Source: Sphingorhabdus sp. YGSMI21
GTDB lineage: Bacteria; Pseudomonadota; Alphaproteobacteria; Sphingomonadales; Sphingomonadaceae
Length of the DNA stretch: 64,000 nucleotides
Direction of reading: 5' to 3'
NCBI RefSeq assembly: GCF_002776575.1
Contig: NZ_CP022548.1
Coordinates: forward strand, 1,875,001-1,939,000
Of this stretch, positions 12,437 through 21,975 are shown piece by piece; within the stretch, counting starts at the first letter, position 1, and every line of letters begins with the position of its first letter. The translations under genes and the position numbers were made by a program. The notes below the pieces were generated by a model that was not told the origin of the DNA, searched no databases, and saw only the letters and a list, made by a program, of their open reading frames with translations.

Positions 12437-12511
12437 TGGGGTGTCGCCAAGTGGTAAGGCAGCGGCTTTTGATGCCGCCATGCGCAGGTTCGAATCCTGC
12501 CACCCCAACCA
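12437..12511 (+). tRNA. tRNA-Gln (anticodon TTG)
   Basis: Acceptor arms TGGGGTG (12437-12443) and CACCCCA (12501-12507) pair. The anticodon stem GCGGC/GCCGC encloses the loop TTTTGAT with anticodon TTG at 12469-12471. The T arm contains GGTTCGAATCC, and CCA is encoded at 12509-12511. The sequence to the right looks accessory, and tRNA 3' ends are common integration sites. Confidence 0.95.
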
Positions 12512-13193
12512 ACTTTTGTTTAACAGCTAAGCGCCTGAAAAACCTTTGGTTTCTCTGCGAGTCAAAACCCCGTGGCACCCTGCCGTGGCACCCTCTCGTG
12601 GCTCTGATTTTGCACCATGACTCGCGCGCCGTTTCGAATCAAGTCGGCAACCGCGATTTTGCGTTTTTCCACTGATTTATCCACATAATTTATGGGACAT
12701 ACTGCAAAGGCCTAGTCGTGCTCCGCAAGGTGGCGAATGGAGCCCTTCGCAGGTTCGGACCGTGATAAGGAAATTTGAAAAATAATTTACTGGTCAATAG
12801 CCGGCCAAGCGCTGAGAGTAGAACAGCTCACCATGGATTTGGTTTGGATGATGTCTAATTTGGATATCAAATAAGTTTCGAGTTTTTCATATTATAATCA
12901 TATAATTCAGCTCGGTTATAGGTTGGGAAAAGATCAAAATTTGGCAGTCGGTGGAATGACTGTTCGAGATTGCGCGATTAATCAACAATTGCCGTTAGAG
13001 TGAAGTTGCTGCCACCTGATAAAACCCATCATGTTTCGACCGTCAGAACGCATGTCGTTCAGGAGGTCACAAACACATGGTGGTCACCGATCAAGCCGTT
13101 GCCGGTTACATGCCGGTCTTTGCCGATGGTATGCCGACTATACACCCAAATAGCTTGCTATTGCGCTTTTAGACGAACTAAAAGGAAATGTGC
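12512..13193. other. Gene-less, AT-rich stretch right of the tRNA
   Basis: No convincing gene. CGTGGCACCCT occurs twice in tandem (12571-12581 and 12584-12594) with a partial third copy. Composition becomes clearly AT-richer after about 12780, in line with an accessory-region boundary. I looked for a second copy of the tRNA 3' end further right by eye and did not find one. Confidence 0.5.
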
Positions 13194-13949
13194 ATGAAAC
13201 AAGTTACACCAAATGGTCATCTTATTAAAGAGTTGCGCTCCAACTTGGAGAAGAACTCGACACAAAAAGAACTGTCATACGCAATTTGCATCAGTGAGCG
13301 GAAGTTGCGTCAAATTGAAAATGAAAACGCACCGATATCAGTAAAAACGCTCGATCGATTGGCGAAAGAGCTGGGTGTAAGGCGCGAACAGATTTCGATG
13401 AGCCAACCCGTTACAAACATTCTACCAGCTTCCGAGCACAATATATTTGAGGCCGTCCTTAACGACTTTCGTAAAGAGAAGCTTGTCCCTCGTTTCGATT
13501 ACGACCTTGCAACCGTGACAATGGATGAGGGTTTGCTAATCAAGTCGGCGAACCAATCCAACGACTTCGTCTGTGAAATCATGGTTCCACTCACCGATAT
13601 GACGGCTCAATACGCCGAGGATTTGATTGCGGCCCTCACTTCATTGACTTGGAGTGAGCGCAGCATCTTGGATACGATAACGTCCACAGAGGAAATCATC
13701 CTGCGTCGCCGTGTAAAGCAGCTCATGGTGCTATTGCGTGGCAACGATATCTGGATTTATCACACGACCCTTTTCCGCAGATTGCCAGAGCGCCACACCC
13801 TTCCGCCGGAAAACGAGCCAAGTGAGTTATCGTCGCGGTTCATTGTTGCACTCGCGGCCCCAGGAGAATACGGCGAGACTAGCATCGAGGTGCAAGTCGA
13901 TCACGGCCAGCCTTTCATCATTCCGGCGTTAGACGGGAAGGTAAGTTAG
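13194..13949 (+). CDS. XRE-family HTH protein, partner of the RloC-like ATPase
   Basis: A 251-residue protein. Residues about 8-68 form a Cro/C1-type helix-turn-helix (LIKELRSNLEKNSTQKELSY, CISERKLRQIENENAPIS, KTLDRLAKELGV). The remaining 180 residues are unrecognised and contain TSLTWSERSILDTI and KQLMVLLRGNDIWIYHTTLF. The start at 13194 has AAGGA seven bases upstream; an ATG two codons earlier is too close to it. Its TAG is followed immediately by the ATG of the next gene, so the two are translationally coupled. It probably regulates, or senses for, the downstream ATPase; the C-terminal part could be a ligand-binding or effector domain. Confidence 0.85.
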   Translation: MKQVTPNGHLIKELRSNLEKNSTQKELSYAICISERKLRQIENENAPISVKTLDRLAKELGVRREQISMSQPVTNILPASEHNIFEAVLNDFRKEKLVPRFDYDLATVTMDEGLLIKSANQSNDFVCEIMVPLTDMTAQYAEDLIAALTSLTWSERSILDTITSTEEIILRRRVKQLMVLLRGNDIWIYHTTLFRRLPERHTLPPENEPSELSSRFIVALAAPGEYGETSIEVQVDHGQPFIIPALDGKVS

Positions 13950-16196
13950 ATGCTAAAATCCATCAAAAAAATCACGAAGCTCGGTATTTTTGATAGCTTC
14001 ATCGCTGCGAACGATCTTCCCGATTTTGCGCGTTACAATTGTATTTACGGCGACAATGCTTCGGGGAAAACTACGCTGACACGGCTACTGGGAGCCCTGA
14101 ATCAAGCCCACCACCCCGATTATCCGGAACTAACATACGAGATCAAGGTCGAGACGGGAAAACTTAATCAAGGGACTGCATACAACCGCAAGATCCGCGT
14201 CTTCAATGCCGATTTCATTGAAGCAAACATCGGTCAGTTTAAAGGCCCACTCCGGCCCATTCTGATAGTAGGAGAGGAAAACAAGGTTCTGGCGGAGGAA
14301 GCCTTAGCTGAACAAGCGATATTTGATGCGCGCCAACTGAAAATCAAGGAATTCAAAGAAACTATCCAAAGGGATGAAGTTTCCAAAGGAAAACTATTTT
14401 CCGAGGTCGCAAAAACAATTAGTGAGGCCACGAGCGGAACAGCATTGCGGAACTATCGTAAGCAAAATTCAGAAAAGGCATTTGATAAAATTACAGAGCC
14501 AATAACGCTGTCAAAGAGAGAGCTGGAGCTTCATCGCACGAGCGTCCGTCAAGAACAACAGGACTTGATCAAACCCTTTAGGCAACCAGTGGTTGCATTA
14601 CTCTCTGATAATAGTGCCCGGCCTTTATCGGAATGGGTAGAGATTGCCGTCGAGCAGACACGATCCCTTACGATGCGCTCCGCGCAAGGCAGCGCTCTTG
14701 CGCGTTTGAGTGAACAGCCCGCTATCGCTAAATGGGTGGAAGAAGGCTTGTCTATCCACCGCGAGCATGCGTCGACTTCGTGCGAGTTCTGCTCACAGCA
14801 GCTTCCACCGGATCGTTTAAGCCAGCTTGCAAAGCATTTCGGAGTCGAGGACCAGCGACTAAAAGCCGATGTAATGGCGATACGTGCTCTTACCGGACAT
14901 ATTCTGCGCGCCATCGATGACATGAACCCCCCGCCAAAACCGGCGTTTTATTCGGAACTTCGCGATCAAGTAGATAGTGCCGCTGCAATGTTTGAGGCTG
15001 CTGCAAACGAAGCTCGCGCACAGCTTATTCAATTGACGAACATTTTGGTTGAGAAGCTAGATCGTCGCGCTGTCTCTTACGAGGTCGATATTTGTATAGA
15101 TTGCTCGAAATTATTCACCGCGATCGATGCGTTATGCTCCCTTGTTGACCAAAACAACGCCAAGACCAACGCCTTCGCCGAAACCTTGGCTGCGGCACGT
15201 GAGCGCATCGAAGCACATTATATCTCAAGCATAAAAGTGCCAGTGAAGGATCTGCAAGACAAGATCGATATCGTGACAAATGAGATCACGAAGCTAGTCG
15301 ATGGTTCAATAGGCTTTGCCGATCCCCGAAGTCTGAGCGACCTCAAAGACTCATTCGAAGAAAAGCGCGCTAAGGTTTCTAGTTCTCACGCAGCAAGCGC
15401 CGAGCTGACCAGCAATGTCCGCACATTCTTGGGCCGCAGTGACCTTAAGTTCGAGTCCGATGTTGAAGGTTACCGGGTCGAGCGCAGCGGCAAGCCCGCT
15501 AAACGATTGAGCGAGGGAGAAAAAACTGCAATCGCGTTCGTGTATTTTCTTGTGCAACTCGGCGATCAGGATTTCAACTTGAGCGAAGGCGTCGTGGTAA
15601 TAGACGATCCAATTTCCAGTCTGGACGCATCGGCCATCTATCAGGCATTTTCGTTCCTGAAAAACGGCGTAAAGAATGCCAAACAAGTATTCATTCTCAC
15701 TCATAACTTTGAGTTTCTTCGGCTACTGCTGAATTGGCACAATCAAAACAAAAAGGCTGCTCGGCACTATATGATCCGTTGCAACGATAACACCGACGCC
15801 CGCAACGCGATTATCATCCCGCTCGACCCTCTGCTTCGCGACTATTCTACTGAGTATCACTACTTATTTAAGCAGTTATACAGCTACACGTGCGATGGCA
15901 CTATCGCTAATGCATACCATCTGCCCAATATCGCTCGCAAAGTGCTAGAGACGTTTCTCGAATTCTACACACCCTCCTCAAAAAGCTCGTATCGGAAGCT
16001 TGAGGGGGTGCATTTTGATGAACACAAAAAAACAGCAATTTACAAGTTTGTGAACGACCAGTCCCACCCAACCGGGAAAAGCTTCGACCCTTCTCTTGTA
16101 GCGGAAACCAAAAAGAATATTAGCTTTTTGTTAGAGATGATAGATACGTTGGCGCCCGTTCACTATCAGGGACTCAAGGCCCTGTGCACAACTTGA
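13950..16196 (+). CDS. RloC/PrrC-like AAA ATPase with putative anticodon-nuclease C-terminus
   Basis: A 748-residue protein of the AAA_13 class. Walker A GDNASGKT is at residues 34-41. A long helical middle contains a CEFC zinc-hook-like motif (278-281). The ABC-type signature LSEGEK is at 520-525, Walker B VVVIDD at 548-553, D-loop SSLDA and the switch His at 585. The C-terminus has Arg663-x3-Glu667 and His706 (IARKVLETFLEF, then FVNDQSH). In PrrC the catalytic triad is Arg320, Glu324, His356; the Arg-Glu spacing is identical and the His spacing similar. Known relatives cleave tRNA anticodon loops when phage disturb restriction enzymes or DNA. Function as an antiphage tRNase is inferred, not shown. 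Confidence 0.85.
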   Translation: MLKSIKKITKLGIFDSFIAANDLPDFARYNCIYGDNASGKTTLTRLLGALNQAHHPDYPELTYEIKVETGKLNQGTAYNRKIRVFNADFIEANIGQFKGPLRPILIVGEENKVLAEEALAEQAIFDARQLKIKEFKETIQRDEVSKGKLFSEVAKTISEATSGTALRNYRKQNSEKAFDKITEPITLSKRELELHRTSVRQEQQDLIKPFRQPVVALLSDNSARPLSEWVEIAVEQTRSLTMRSAQGSALARLSEQPAIAKWVEEGLSIHREHASTSCEFCSQQLPPDRLSQLAKHFGVEDQRLKADVMAIRALTGHILRAIDDMNPPPKPAFYSELRDQVDSAAAMFEAAANEARAQLIQLTNILVEKLDRRAVSYEVDICIDCSKLFTAIDALCSLVDQNNAKTNAFAETLAAARERIEAHYISSIKVPVKDLQDKIDIVTNEITKLVDGSIGFADPRSLSDLKDSFEEKRAKVSSSHAASAELTSNVRTFLGRSDLKFESDVEGYRVERSGKPAKRLSEGEKTAIAFVYFLVQLGDQDFNLSEGVVVIDDPISSLDASAIYQAFSFLKNGVKNAKQVFILTHNFEFLRLLLNWHNQNKKAARHYMIRCNDNTDARNAIIIPLDPLLRDYSTEYHYLFKQLYSYTCDGTIANAYHLPNIARKVLETFLEFYTPSSKSSYRKLEGVHFDEHKKTAIYKFVNDQSHPTGKSFDPSLVAETKKNISFLLEMIDTLAPVHYQGLKALCTT

Positions 16197-16343: not shown

Positions 16344-16907
16344 ATGAATGCAGTTGAAATCGAACAAGCCATATCGGAATTGGCCGAACAGCCCTTTGAT
16401 GCTGCTGAATTTTCCTATCAATTTCTGGCTGCGTTCGGGAATAAAGCCACCACGATCAAGCAGCTGAAAAGCGGTAACAGCGACCAGAGCAATATGGATG
16501 GCGCGGTCTTACAGCGCAATCATATCCATATTGCAACTTGCGACACAGGCACGGTCGACGGCACGCTGAAAGCCCTGCGGGAAAGCCCGAAGACGCAATC
16601 TGCCAAGGCCAAATTCATTCTCGCCACAGATGGCGAGACTTTGCATGCCGAGGACTTGACCGGTGGCGAAACCGTGGACTGCGACTATGTTGATTTCCCG
16701 AACCATTTCGGCTTTTTCCTGCCGCTCGCGGGTATCACTACGGTCAAGCAGATCCGCGAAAGTTCCTTCGACATTTGAGCGACCAGCCGGCTCAATCGGC
16801 TGTATTTGACGCTGCTACAAGACAATCCAAATTGGGCCACCGCCGAGCGGCGCGTCAATATGAATCATTTCATGGCGCGGCTGATCTTCTGCTTTTTTGC
16901 CGAGGAT
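16344..16907 (+). pseudogene. N-terminal remnant of an MmeI-like class I DNA methyltransferase, in-frame stop and truncated
   Basis: Residues 1-144 (MNAVEIEQAISELAEQPFDA to REIRESSFDI-like end) match what I remember of the N-terminal domain of MmeI-type restriction-methylation enzymes. A TGA at 16776-16778 ends it, yet the same frame continues with ATSRLNRLYLTLLQDNPNWA and MNHFMARLIFCFFAED, exactly as in intact relatives, where an Arg codon stands at this place. A single C-to-T change of CGA would explain the stop. Similarity ends near 16907, so the SAM-binding and target-recognition parts are missing. It was probably once part of the same defence locus as the RloC-like gene. Confidence 0.82.
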
Positions 16908-17230
16908 ATCCAAAAGGCGGCATTCGTGGATTTGGCAATGGCCGAGATGGTCTATCCATCGGCTAGTCGACATCCGTTAACTTGGATTCGATGTTGGCCC
17001 AGAGAATGCGGGGCAACTAGCATTTTTGGCTCGAGGCGAGGGTAGGGGGTTAGGGCCTGCTATCGGGTCAGACGTAAGATGCGGGGCAGCACAGCATCGG
17101 GATAGGTAATTCAGAAGAGAGTAATTCTTTCAGAACAGCAGAAAATTTGAATCATGAAGTTGAAAGGAAAAATTCCAGCTTCGTGGTTCGAAACCACTCA
17201 GCGCGGCAAAGCCGCAAAGGAAAGAATCTT

Positions 17231-17806
17231 ATGAACTATACCATTCCAGTTAACCCATCCGACTACCAATGCGGTGTAAATGATATCTTGCTCGCAGTTG
17301 AAAACGAATTCTGTGCCTCCATTGCTACGCCATGCCCGGGGTTGAATACACTGGTTATGGGAGGCAGCAGACTGACCAAAGAAGCGGAATTCGACATTGC
17401 CGAATACTCTTTTGAACAGGACTGGAACATAATCTATGTCGCTATAGATAAGTCAAAATACAATTCCAAGCATCGGCTGGACGACATGAAAATCAGCTTT
17501 TTCGACGCAAGCGGATGGGGCGAAGCCACAGTGTATGATGACTGCAGAATTTGGAAAGAAGGAGCCTTGGCCCGTCTCGTGCTTCAAACTAGCGAACCGC
17601 TTGAGATGAATGTAAGAATAAACGGAGATGTCGAAATACGCGATGGCGAATGTTCCTACCACGAGCACGGGTTCGACCTCGCCCGCAAGGATCTAGGAAA
17701 GCGAACGACGCGGAAGCAGTTGTCGGTCCCGGTCATCGGCACGATCGGAGATGCCAATGTAATTTTTGATATACAGACCTTGCCTAAAGCCTGGGTCACC
17801 GATTGA
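17231..17806 (+). CDS. Hypothetical protein
   Basis: Unrecognised soluble protein of 191 residues without signal peptide or membrane segment, starting MNYTIPVNPSDYQCGVNDIL. It has many beta-prone stretches (DWNIIYVAIDKSKY, EMNVRINGDVEIRDGECSYH). The chosen ATG has GGAAAG eight bases upstream; an earlier in-frame start would add 28 low-quality residues. It stands alone in an otherwise decayed stretch after the methyltransferase remnant. Confidence 0.6.
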   Translation: MNYTIPVNPSDYQCGVNDILLAVENEFCASIATPCPGLNTLVMGGSRLTKEAEFDIAEYSFEQDWNIIYVAIDKSKYNSKHRLDDMKISFFDASGWGEATVYDDCRIWKEGALARLVLQTSEPLEMNVRINGDVEIRDGECSYHEHGFDLARKDLGKRTTRKQLSVPVIGTIGDANVIFDIQTLPKAWVTD

Positions 17807-18000
17807 TCGGTTAAAACCGAAGCGGCAATCACAATAGTTCGCAAGACGCGAACACCTACAAATCAATACCCGAGTAATGAAAGGGTTATTGAATTAGGGG
17901 GTAGAGGGGAAAAGCGGAGGCCGAGCCCGGCCCCGTGGCTTCGCCATAACTGGGAGACAATTAAGAAACTGTAAAGAGCATGCAAGATAATTGCTGACAA

Positions 18001-18086
18001 GCTGCTCAGCAGCCACTGGGGGACGCAGAAAAAGGTCTGCGTCCCCCAGAGCGCCTGAGAGGCGCCTTTGTCCGCTTACGGCGGAC
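18001..18086. repeat. Cluster of four consecutive perfect hairpins
   Basis: GCTGCT/AGCAGC at 18001-18013. A 14-bp stem CTGGGGGACGCAGA (18016-18029) with TCTGCGTCCCCCAG (18036-18049) and a 6-base loop. GCGCCT/AGGCGC at 18051-18065. GTCCGC/GCGGAC at 18070-18086. No T-run follows on either strand, so they do not look like ordinary terminators. They could form a structured RNA or a single-stranded DNA element. Confidence 0.7.
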
Positions 18087-18339
18087 GTGCCCGAAGTTCT
18101 ATATATCGGGATTTTCCACTCTCCTCTTCATAATCATTTATTGGCTTAGGCATCGTGATCGACTGCAAGTCGTTTATAAATTTTACTATTTTCATTTTTC
18201 AGGACTCCATATGCCGACGCATGCGGCTATATTCTTTTTTCCCTTCAACCCGGGAATTTCAAATTTCCCGTTCTTCAATCAGTTCTTTTTGAAACTGCCG
18301 CTATCGCGCCGCAGAAAAGCGGACCTCAGTGAATGGTGC

Positions 18340-18540
18340 TCTTGGTGTCGGCATGGTATACTGACCGATTGTTGCCATTAATTCCCGGACGCGTTGAGTT
18401 CAGGCGATGGTAGCTTCTAGGAACGAGCGTCGACCTTGGGAATGACGTCATTTGGGCGCATTTCGCTCCGTCTGTAGTTGGGCCGATTGCGGACTGTCCG
18501 GTTCTGGATAGCCAGCCCAACTAGCGGACATTAAACGCGG
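18340..18540. repeat. Mosaic non-coding repeat, copy 1
   Basis: Shares modules with the copy at 21640-21975. TAGCTTCTAGGAACGAGCGT here matches CAGCTTCCAGGAACCAGCGT there, both followed by a GGAATGACG...TTGGGCGC module in the same order. A second module, CAATCGGCCCAA with AGAACCGGAC, occurs in opposite orientation. No open frame is credible. Confidence 0.6.
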
Positions 18541-18750
18541 AGCGATTGTAATGTCAGCTTCCGCCGCAATCCCGGCCACTCCTGAGGTGTTTGCGTCCGC
18601 TCGAAAGTGGACGCGATCTTCGTGCGTTCAAAGTGAGAAAAGTCCAAGACCCGCTACGATTTCATCCTTAGTCTGCTCGCTGATCTCCCGGCCCCGCTAG
18701 CCCAAACTTGATTGTTGACTTAATATCATCAAACGTAAACATGCTATTGT

Positions 18751-21639: not shown

Positions 21640-21975
21640 CCACCCAGTTATTGCCATTATGGTGCGACTGCATCGACTTCAGGCAATGACAGCTTCCAGG
21701 AACCAGCGTCAGCCTTCGGAATGACGACAATTGGGCGCGAAGCGGACATAAAGCCGGGCAGCTGCGAATGTCTCCAAAAAGGGGCGTTTGCCGACCAGCC
21801 GCTTTTATGTTCCATCCAATCAATTCTAATGACCGAAACTGGTGCGGAAGCTGACATTGCAATCGCTCTGCGTTTTTGTCCGCTAGTCGGACCAGCTGCA
21901 CAGAACCGGACCGTCGGCAATCGGCCCAATCGCAGACGATCTGAAATGCGCCCAAGAACAGACCATTACTCAAAA
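21640..21975. repeat. Mosaic non-coding repeat, copy 2
   Basis: Modules in order: CAGCTTCCAGGAACCAGCGT, GGAATGACGACAATTGGGCG, GAAGCGGACATAAAG, then GAACCGGACCGTCGGCAATC and TCTGAAATGCGCCCA. The last two recur, degenerate, next to the mer operon. A GTCCGCTT/AAGCGGAC hairpin at about 21478-21502 has the same style. With 21381-21639 this makes a 620-base gap without credible genes. Confidence 0.6.

Follow-up and report, generated by a model that had tools for sequence, protein, structure and literature searches.

In a 64,000-nucleotide window of the Sphingorhabdus sp. YGSMI21 genome (NZ_CP022548.1, positions 1,875,001 to 1,939,000, forward strand) we analysed two abutting genes, xre and rloC, which encode an XRE-type regulator and an ATPase of the RloC type. 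RloC itself is already known; what is new is an XRE partner that is inherited together with it and a conserved array of TGCCG boxes ahead of the pair. From the sequence comparisons we read the two genes, with about even confidence, as an autoregulated module, in which XRE would repress through the TGCCG array and a latent nuclease would serve in phage defence. The elements concerned are the following (window coordinates).

13100..13136, + strand: putative operator, four TGCCG boxes (at 13100, 13111, 13121 and 13132; steps 11, 10 and 11), 94 to 62 nt ahead of the xre start
13194..13949, + strand: xre, 251 residues; Cro/C1-type helix-turn-helix (HTH) at about residues 8-66, variable linker, conserved C-terminal domain at about 93-245 without an assigned fold
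13950..16196, + strand: rloC, 748 residues; Rad50-like ABC ATPase, coiled-coil/CxxC insert, C-terminal anticodon-nuclease domain (R663, E667, H706)
14049..14072, + strand: Walker A of rloC, codons 34-41; K40 in 32/32 aligned proteins
14781..14792, + strand: CxxC zinc-hook-like motif, codons 278-281; in 32/32 rows of the relatives' alignment and 70/70 of the viral-contig alignment
15936..15950, + strand: nuclease motif, codons R663 to E667; placed by the alignments, the published RloC motif and profile alignment to PrrC
16065..16067, + strand: nuclease His706 codon; H in 30/30 rows reaching the position and in 63/70 of the viral-contig alignment

The TAG stop codon of xre is directly followed by the ATG of rloC. 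A tRNA-Gln gene (12437-12511) ends 683 nt ahead of the xre start. Another in-frame ATG two codons upstream is a less likely start, because its spacing to the AGGA is very short.

The rloC product matched PF13166 (E 2e-122, residues 11-728) and, over its full length, the PADLOC entry PDC-S06 (model PDLC04894, 885 bits), of which XRE is not a part. PDC-S entries in PADLOC are single-gene candidates. In an alignment of the window protein with 31 relatives, K40 of Walker A, the C278-x2-C281 pair, S521, G523 and E524 of the signature, D552-D553 and the linchpin H585 were invariant; the ABC ATPase motifs were also invariant across 70 rows, the window protein and 69 viral-contig relatives. The nuclease triad (R663, E or D at 667, H706) was complete in every row that reached the C-terminus, L017 and L041, which lack it, having been left out of the count. 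Its spacing, R663-x3-E667-x38-H706 with S705 just before the histidine, falls inside the published RloC pattern R-X3-E-X36-52-H, in which a Ser often precedes the His (PMC2610378). Profile alignment placed the three residues onto the R, E and H of PrrC. The first-pass annotation of this DNA had named Walker A, CxxC, an ABC signature, Walker B and Arg663/Glu667/His706; all of them are in place, and its suggestion of an RloC/PrrC-type nuclease with an intact triad holds. By these alignments the ATPase is an RloC with intact catalytic residues.

In the predicted model long helices span residues 109-160, 226-242, 257-273, 299-324, 335-371, 386-407, 409-426, 429-451 and 462-494. Both model and alignment put the CxxC hook within the helical coiled-coil insert, and the C-terminus is helical from residue 627 onward. 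RloC and PrrC nuclease domains have been assigned to the HEPN fold (PMC3710099), a bundle of helices whose catalytic residues are R and H. Our structural search matched mainly ATPase heads and listed no HEPN chain; it barely covered residues beyond 637 and is uninformative for 640-748. No solved RloC structure was found by sequence profile, the matches being AriA, Rad50, ABC heads, a protein named as ice-binding and apolipoprotein A-IV.

We assign the ATPase to RloC and not to PrrC, because the hook is present and no hsd gene is adjacent. PrrC is described without a zinc-hook insert (PMC2610378) and as always accompanying a type Ic hsd locus (PMC3874168); beside all six PrrC relatives that we inspected, HsdS-like or RhuM-like frames were read by eye. 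Shared with PrrC are the aligned nuclease residues and the presence of a partner protein, which PrrC has in EcoprrI; the PADLOC PrrC model matched residues 505-730 (E 1e-12). Thus, of the earlier label "RloC/PrrC-like" the first half was kept and the second dropped. The departure from the PrrC arrangement, to which the same annotation drew attention, is there, but it is not unusual: RloC was linked to type I or III restriction-modification (R-M) genes in 8 of 73 cases (PMC2610378), and in a family so rarely tied to restriction genes the absence of hsd is normal. The protein shares with the RloCs of Geobacillus kaustophilus and Acinetobacter baylyi the ABC head split by a coiled-coil/CxxC insert, the R-X3-E-X36-52-H motif and a position outside a type I R-M locus, and its 748 residues fit the RloC size range of 658-897. 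Wobble-nucleotide excision from tRNA, controlled by a DNA-dependent ATPase, is a further mark of RloC.

XRE relatives were sought in three overlapping sets of 98, 385 and 146 genomes. They were found in five distinct genomes, each time directly upstream of rloC. A search of 396 genomes of the order with an RloC model gave nine matches and added two XRE-bearing loci, L040 (xre 69% and rloC 70% identical to the window) and L037 (51% and 52%). Four genomes of the window's genus carry identical xre copies, whereas those of three other genomes, from two lineages, are 51-69% identical. The XREs of L009 and L037 are 93% identical, and their host genomes belong to different families (f67 and f1); the two genes thus seem to be transferred together. 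The two genes abut in the window; in L040 a gap of 6 nt separates them, and in L009 and L037 they share 7 nt. Searches of viral contigs (192 pattern-matching stretches, none confirmed), of 72,556 plasmid records, which include the Sphingobium plasmids H2 and H4, and of 50,697 phage records yielded no XRE relative. A viral-contig scan using L025 gave no confirmed match.

The genes of the pair diverge equally, and both are under purifying selection: between L009 and L037 the nonsynonymous and synonymous divergences (dN/dS) were 0.033/0.22 for xre and 0.033/0.18 for rloC. Between the window and L040 silent sites of both genes are saturated; in this comparison the linker of xre, its least constrained part, had the highest dN and the C-terminal domain the lowest (0.175; HTH 0.229). 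In the RloC tree, from which the broken gene L028 was excluded, the XRE-bearing RloCs form one side of a single branch (support 81/85) in a clade of nine rows. tblastn found no XRE relative adjoining other tree rows, the upstream DNA examined being often just 1.5 kb.

The four TGCCG boxes of the window stand at -94, -83, -73 and -62 from the xre start, spaced by about one turn, and L040 has four boxes at identical distances. From -97 to -51 the window and L040 agree at 32/47 bases (20/20 in the boxes, 12/27 between them); outside this segment at 27/78. The agreement in the boxes stands although the genes' silent sites are saturated. In L009 and L037 exact boxes stand at -100, -89 and -67, with a further one at -105 or -108, so that the 11-bp register is partly kept. 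The window array is the sole exact match in its own 4.06-Mb genome, where the next best has two mismatches, and the L040 array is the sole match in its genome at one mismatch or fewer. The three-box form matches exactly once in the L009 genome and once in that of L037, both times at xre; the other two genomes also hold one such match each elsewhere. The five XRE-less rloC genes compared all lack the array, and none of them is preceded by more than two TGCCG. We read the array as the putative operator of XRE. In viral contigs the exact four-box pattern had nine matches.

XRE matched HTH_3 above the Pfam cutoff (26.9 against 23 bits), as did the proteins of L040 (27.1 bits) and L009 (26.1 bits). 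Among the HTH matches was PezA (PDB 2p5t, E 0.0024; NCBIfam, 0.0049). The C-terminal domain had been called unrecognised in the first-pass annotation, and our searches agree: residues 77-251 scanned alone gave a best Pfam E of 0.22, with WYL among the families not matched, and nothing in PADLOC or NCBIfam. Matches among PDB sequences stopped by profile position 83, none being confident for the C-terminal domain. Weak matches of the whole protein that reach past the HTH (PADLOC RmrA, residues 8-190, 0.023; NCBIfam ROK glucokinase, 108-176, 0.077) and of the L009 protein to PHROG 15848 (0.08) were taken as noise; the RmrA likeness was rejected, as it was gone once residues 77-251 were scanned alone. 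The fold predicted from the single sequence had a mean predicted local distance difference test score (pLDDT) of 33.8.

In the module that we propose, XRE would bind the TGCCG array ahead of its own gene and keep transcription of xre-rloC low. rloC would be translated from the shared message, with its ATG right behind the xre stop. RloC would stay latent as a Rad50-like ATPase until DNA ends or a disturbance caused by phage engage its ATPase/coiled-coil part; for other RloCs DNA-triggered tRNA cleavage has been published, and the ATPase part responds to DNA breaks (PMC3874168). The C-terminal domain would then cut the anticodon loop of a host tRNA, so that translation stops and phage growth fails. 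We infer tRNA cleavage and antiphage function from the family, and together with the PADLOC listing this makes phage defence probably the role of the locus. The C-terminal domain of XRE, which is conserved under purifying selection, may tune repression by sensing a ligand or a partner. The locus bears on the control of latent anticodon nucleases, both their safekeeping and their activation: PrrC depends for this on an R-M enzyme, and RloC is thought to be self-reliant. A conserved XRE partner with an array of its own suggests a third control layer, with the XRE C-terminal domain as a possible new sensor. The RloCs of G. kaustophilus and A. baylyi are described as being under an internal switch, unlike the arrangement here with its abutting xre and conserved upstream boxes. 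Among the open-licence papers that our literature searches listed, no title or opening of an abstract described an XRE- or HTH-controlled RloC. The WYL regulators of the BrxR family are a likeness from other defence operons, being described as encoded upstream with proposed autoregulation; the XRE C-terminal domain differs in having no WYL match.

Several observations weigh against this reading. The first-pass annotation had asked whether the XRE gene stays beside close homologues of the ATPase: the pair does recur in two further lineages, but in the closest clade it is present in only four of nine rows, the other five (L010, L026, L027, L038 and L039, of which the plasmid rows L026 and L027 are near-copies of each other) having no XRE in the DNA examined. 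The branch of the XRE-bearing RloCs has moderate support (81/85), below the star threshold, and more than one change is required in 19% of 200 bootstrap trees. In L009 and L037 one of the four places, between -89 and -67, holds GACCGG and no exact box, and the 20/20 identity of the boxes is partly built in, because the sequences were inspected first and the boxes defined from them. Inverted repeats are the usual target of XRE proteins, and the repeats here are direct. A 31-codon open frame (13077-13172) with a good ribosome-binding site, AGGAGG (13061-13066), ten bases ahead of its ATG overlaps all four boxes. Promoter-like sites did not exceed the chance level (2 against 4.7 expected), and neither of them is ahead of xre. 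The equivalent of H706, finally, is not universal in the viral-contig alignment.

The strongest rival is a toxin-antitoxin pair, in which the C-terminal domain of XRE would bind and silence RloC, as EcoprrI does for PrrC, the HTH would autoregulate, and loss or modification of XRE would free the nuclease. It is compatible with autoregulated expression, and we hold it to be a serious possibility, if a minority one. XRE antitoxins of type II toxin-antitoxin pairs are likewise encoded upstream, with proposed autoregulation, and here the regulator gene precedes the presumptive toxin gene at each of the three kinds of junction. The equal rate of change of the two proteins, the low dN of the C-terminal domain relative to L040 and the PezA match also favour it. 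However, the HTH matches are generic, between L009 and L037 the HTH is at least as well conserved as the C-terminal domain (dN 0.013 against 0.020), and close RloCs without XRE exist. Moreover, GkRloC is reported to have an internal switch and AbaRloC not to be silenced by R-M proteins (PMC3874168). A bolder version, which we consider rather doubtful, makes the C-terminal domain a new infection sensor that silences RloC by contact and represses the operon through the array, one phage-made trigger then freeing the nuclease and boosting its synthesis. If true, the trigger of this RloC would be sensed externally, whereas the RloCs studied to date are switched internally.

It is improbable that the array is a different conserved 5' element, such as a leader peptide, an RNA element or the target site of a host factor, although the short open frame over the boxes and their direct orientation would suit one. 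A leader peptide behind the boxes was not supported: mismatches between the window and L040 were spread evenly over codon positions, with no bias to third positions in any of three frames. In L009 and L037 the last box shifts its reading-frame phase, whereas the first two keep theirs, and the array is missing from the five XRE-less loci compared.

We consider it very unlikely that the ATPase is not a tRNase but an AAA_13 protein that has lost its catalytic activity or been repurposed. Seven of the 70 proteins in the viral-contig alignment have no aligned His, yet retain Arg and Glu/Asp, so family members lacking the triad can exist; the window protein, however, has the triad and the preceding Ser. 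Least credible of all is that XRE is a chance neighbour carried along with an island, for although the copy in four genus members is one identical recent copy, L009, L037 and L040 contradict it, one pair-bearing genome (G414, family f67) lies outside the window's family, and XRE relatives were not found away from rloC in the genomes searched.

From tRNA-Gln to its end (12424-64000) the window is 99.7-100% identical to the genus genomes G012 and G003, save one replaced stretch in G003, and this identity runs on past 64000, whereas the chromosome just left of tRNA-Gln agrees with them at only about 77-95% per 300-nt block. A third genus genome, G028, is identical over the compared part, to 21193. 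The pair therefore occupies the left edge of an island that moved recently and exceeds 51 kb; RND efflux, P-type ATPase and multicopper oxidase genes lie on it as well. The direct neighbours of rloC are xre and, downstream, a remnant (16344-17045) from the start of a broken MmeI-type R-M gene in two frames, one matching PF20464 (1e-28) and the other PF20465. In G003 (L007) window bases 16857-18379 are swapped for about 253 different bases. Inverted repeats of about 113 nt, 82% alike (18452-18564 and 21844-21955), flank a LysR regulator gene and other frames.

At 7 of 56 viral-contig AAA_13 loci (L102, L111, L119, L125, L126, L127 and L128) an HTH gene of 66-93 residues ends within 40 nt of the ATPase start or overlaps it; HTH_17 was confirmed in all four of those scanned (L102, L111, L125 and L128), and five of the seven ATPases lack the aligned catalytic His, with Arg and Glu/Asp retained. 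An overlapping Abi_C protein (PF14355; L063, 642-1391) and a Ymh protein (PF09509; L083, 2177-2968) stand close upstream of RloC relatives, as if RloC swapped partners. Two further HTH frames near distant RloCs, read by eye and neither matching the window XRE, are a HigA-like one in L025 (1148-1459) ending 41 nt ahead of rloC and an XRE-like one of 80 residues in L024 (805-1047), 444 nt ahead. The XRE-less RloCs of L026 and L027, on two Sphingobium plasmids, are flanked on one side by the gene of a 173-residue protein, whose L026 copy matches nothing in Pfam, and on the other by a convergent gene that carries the annotation restriction endonuclease or McrBC component.
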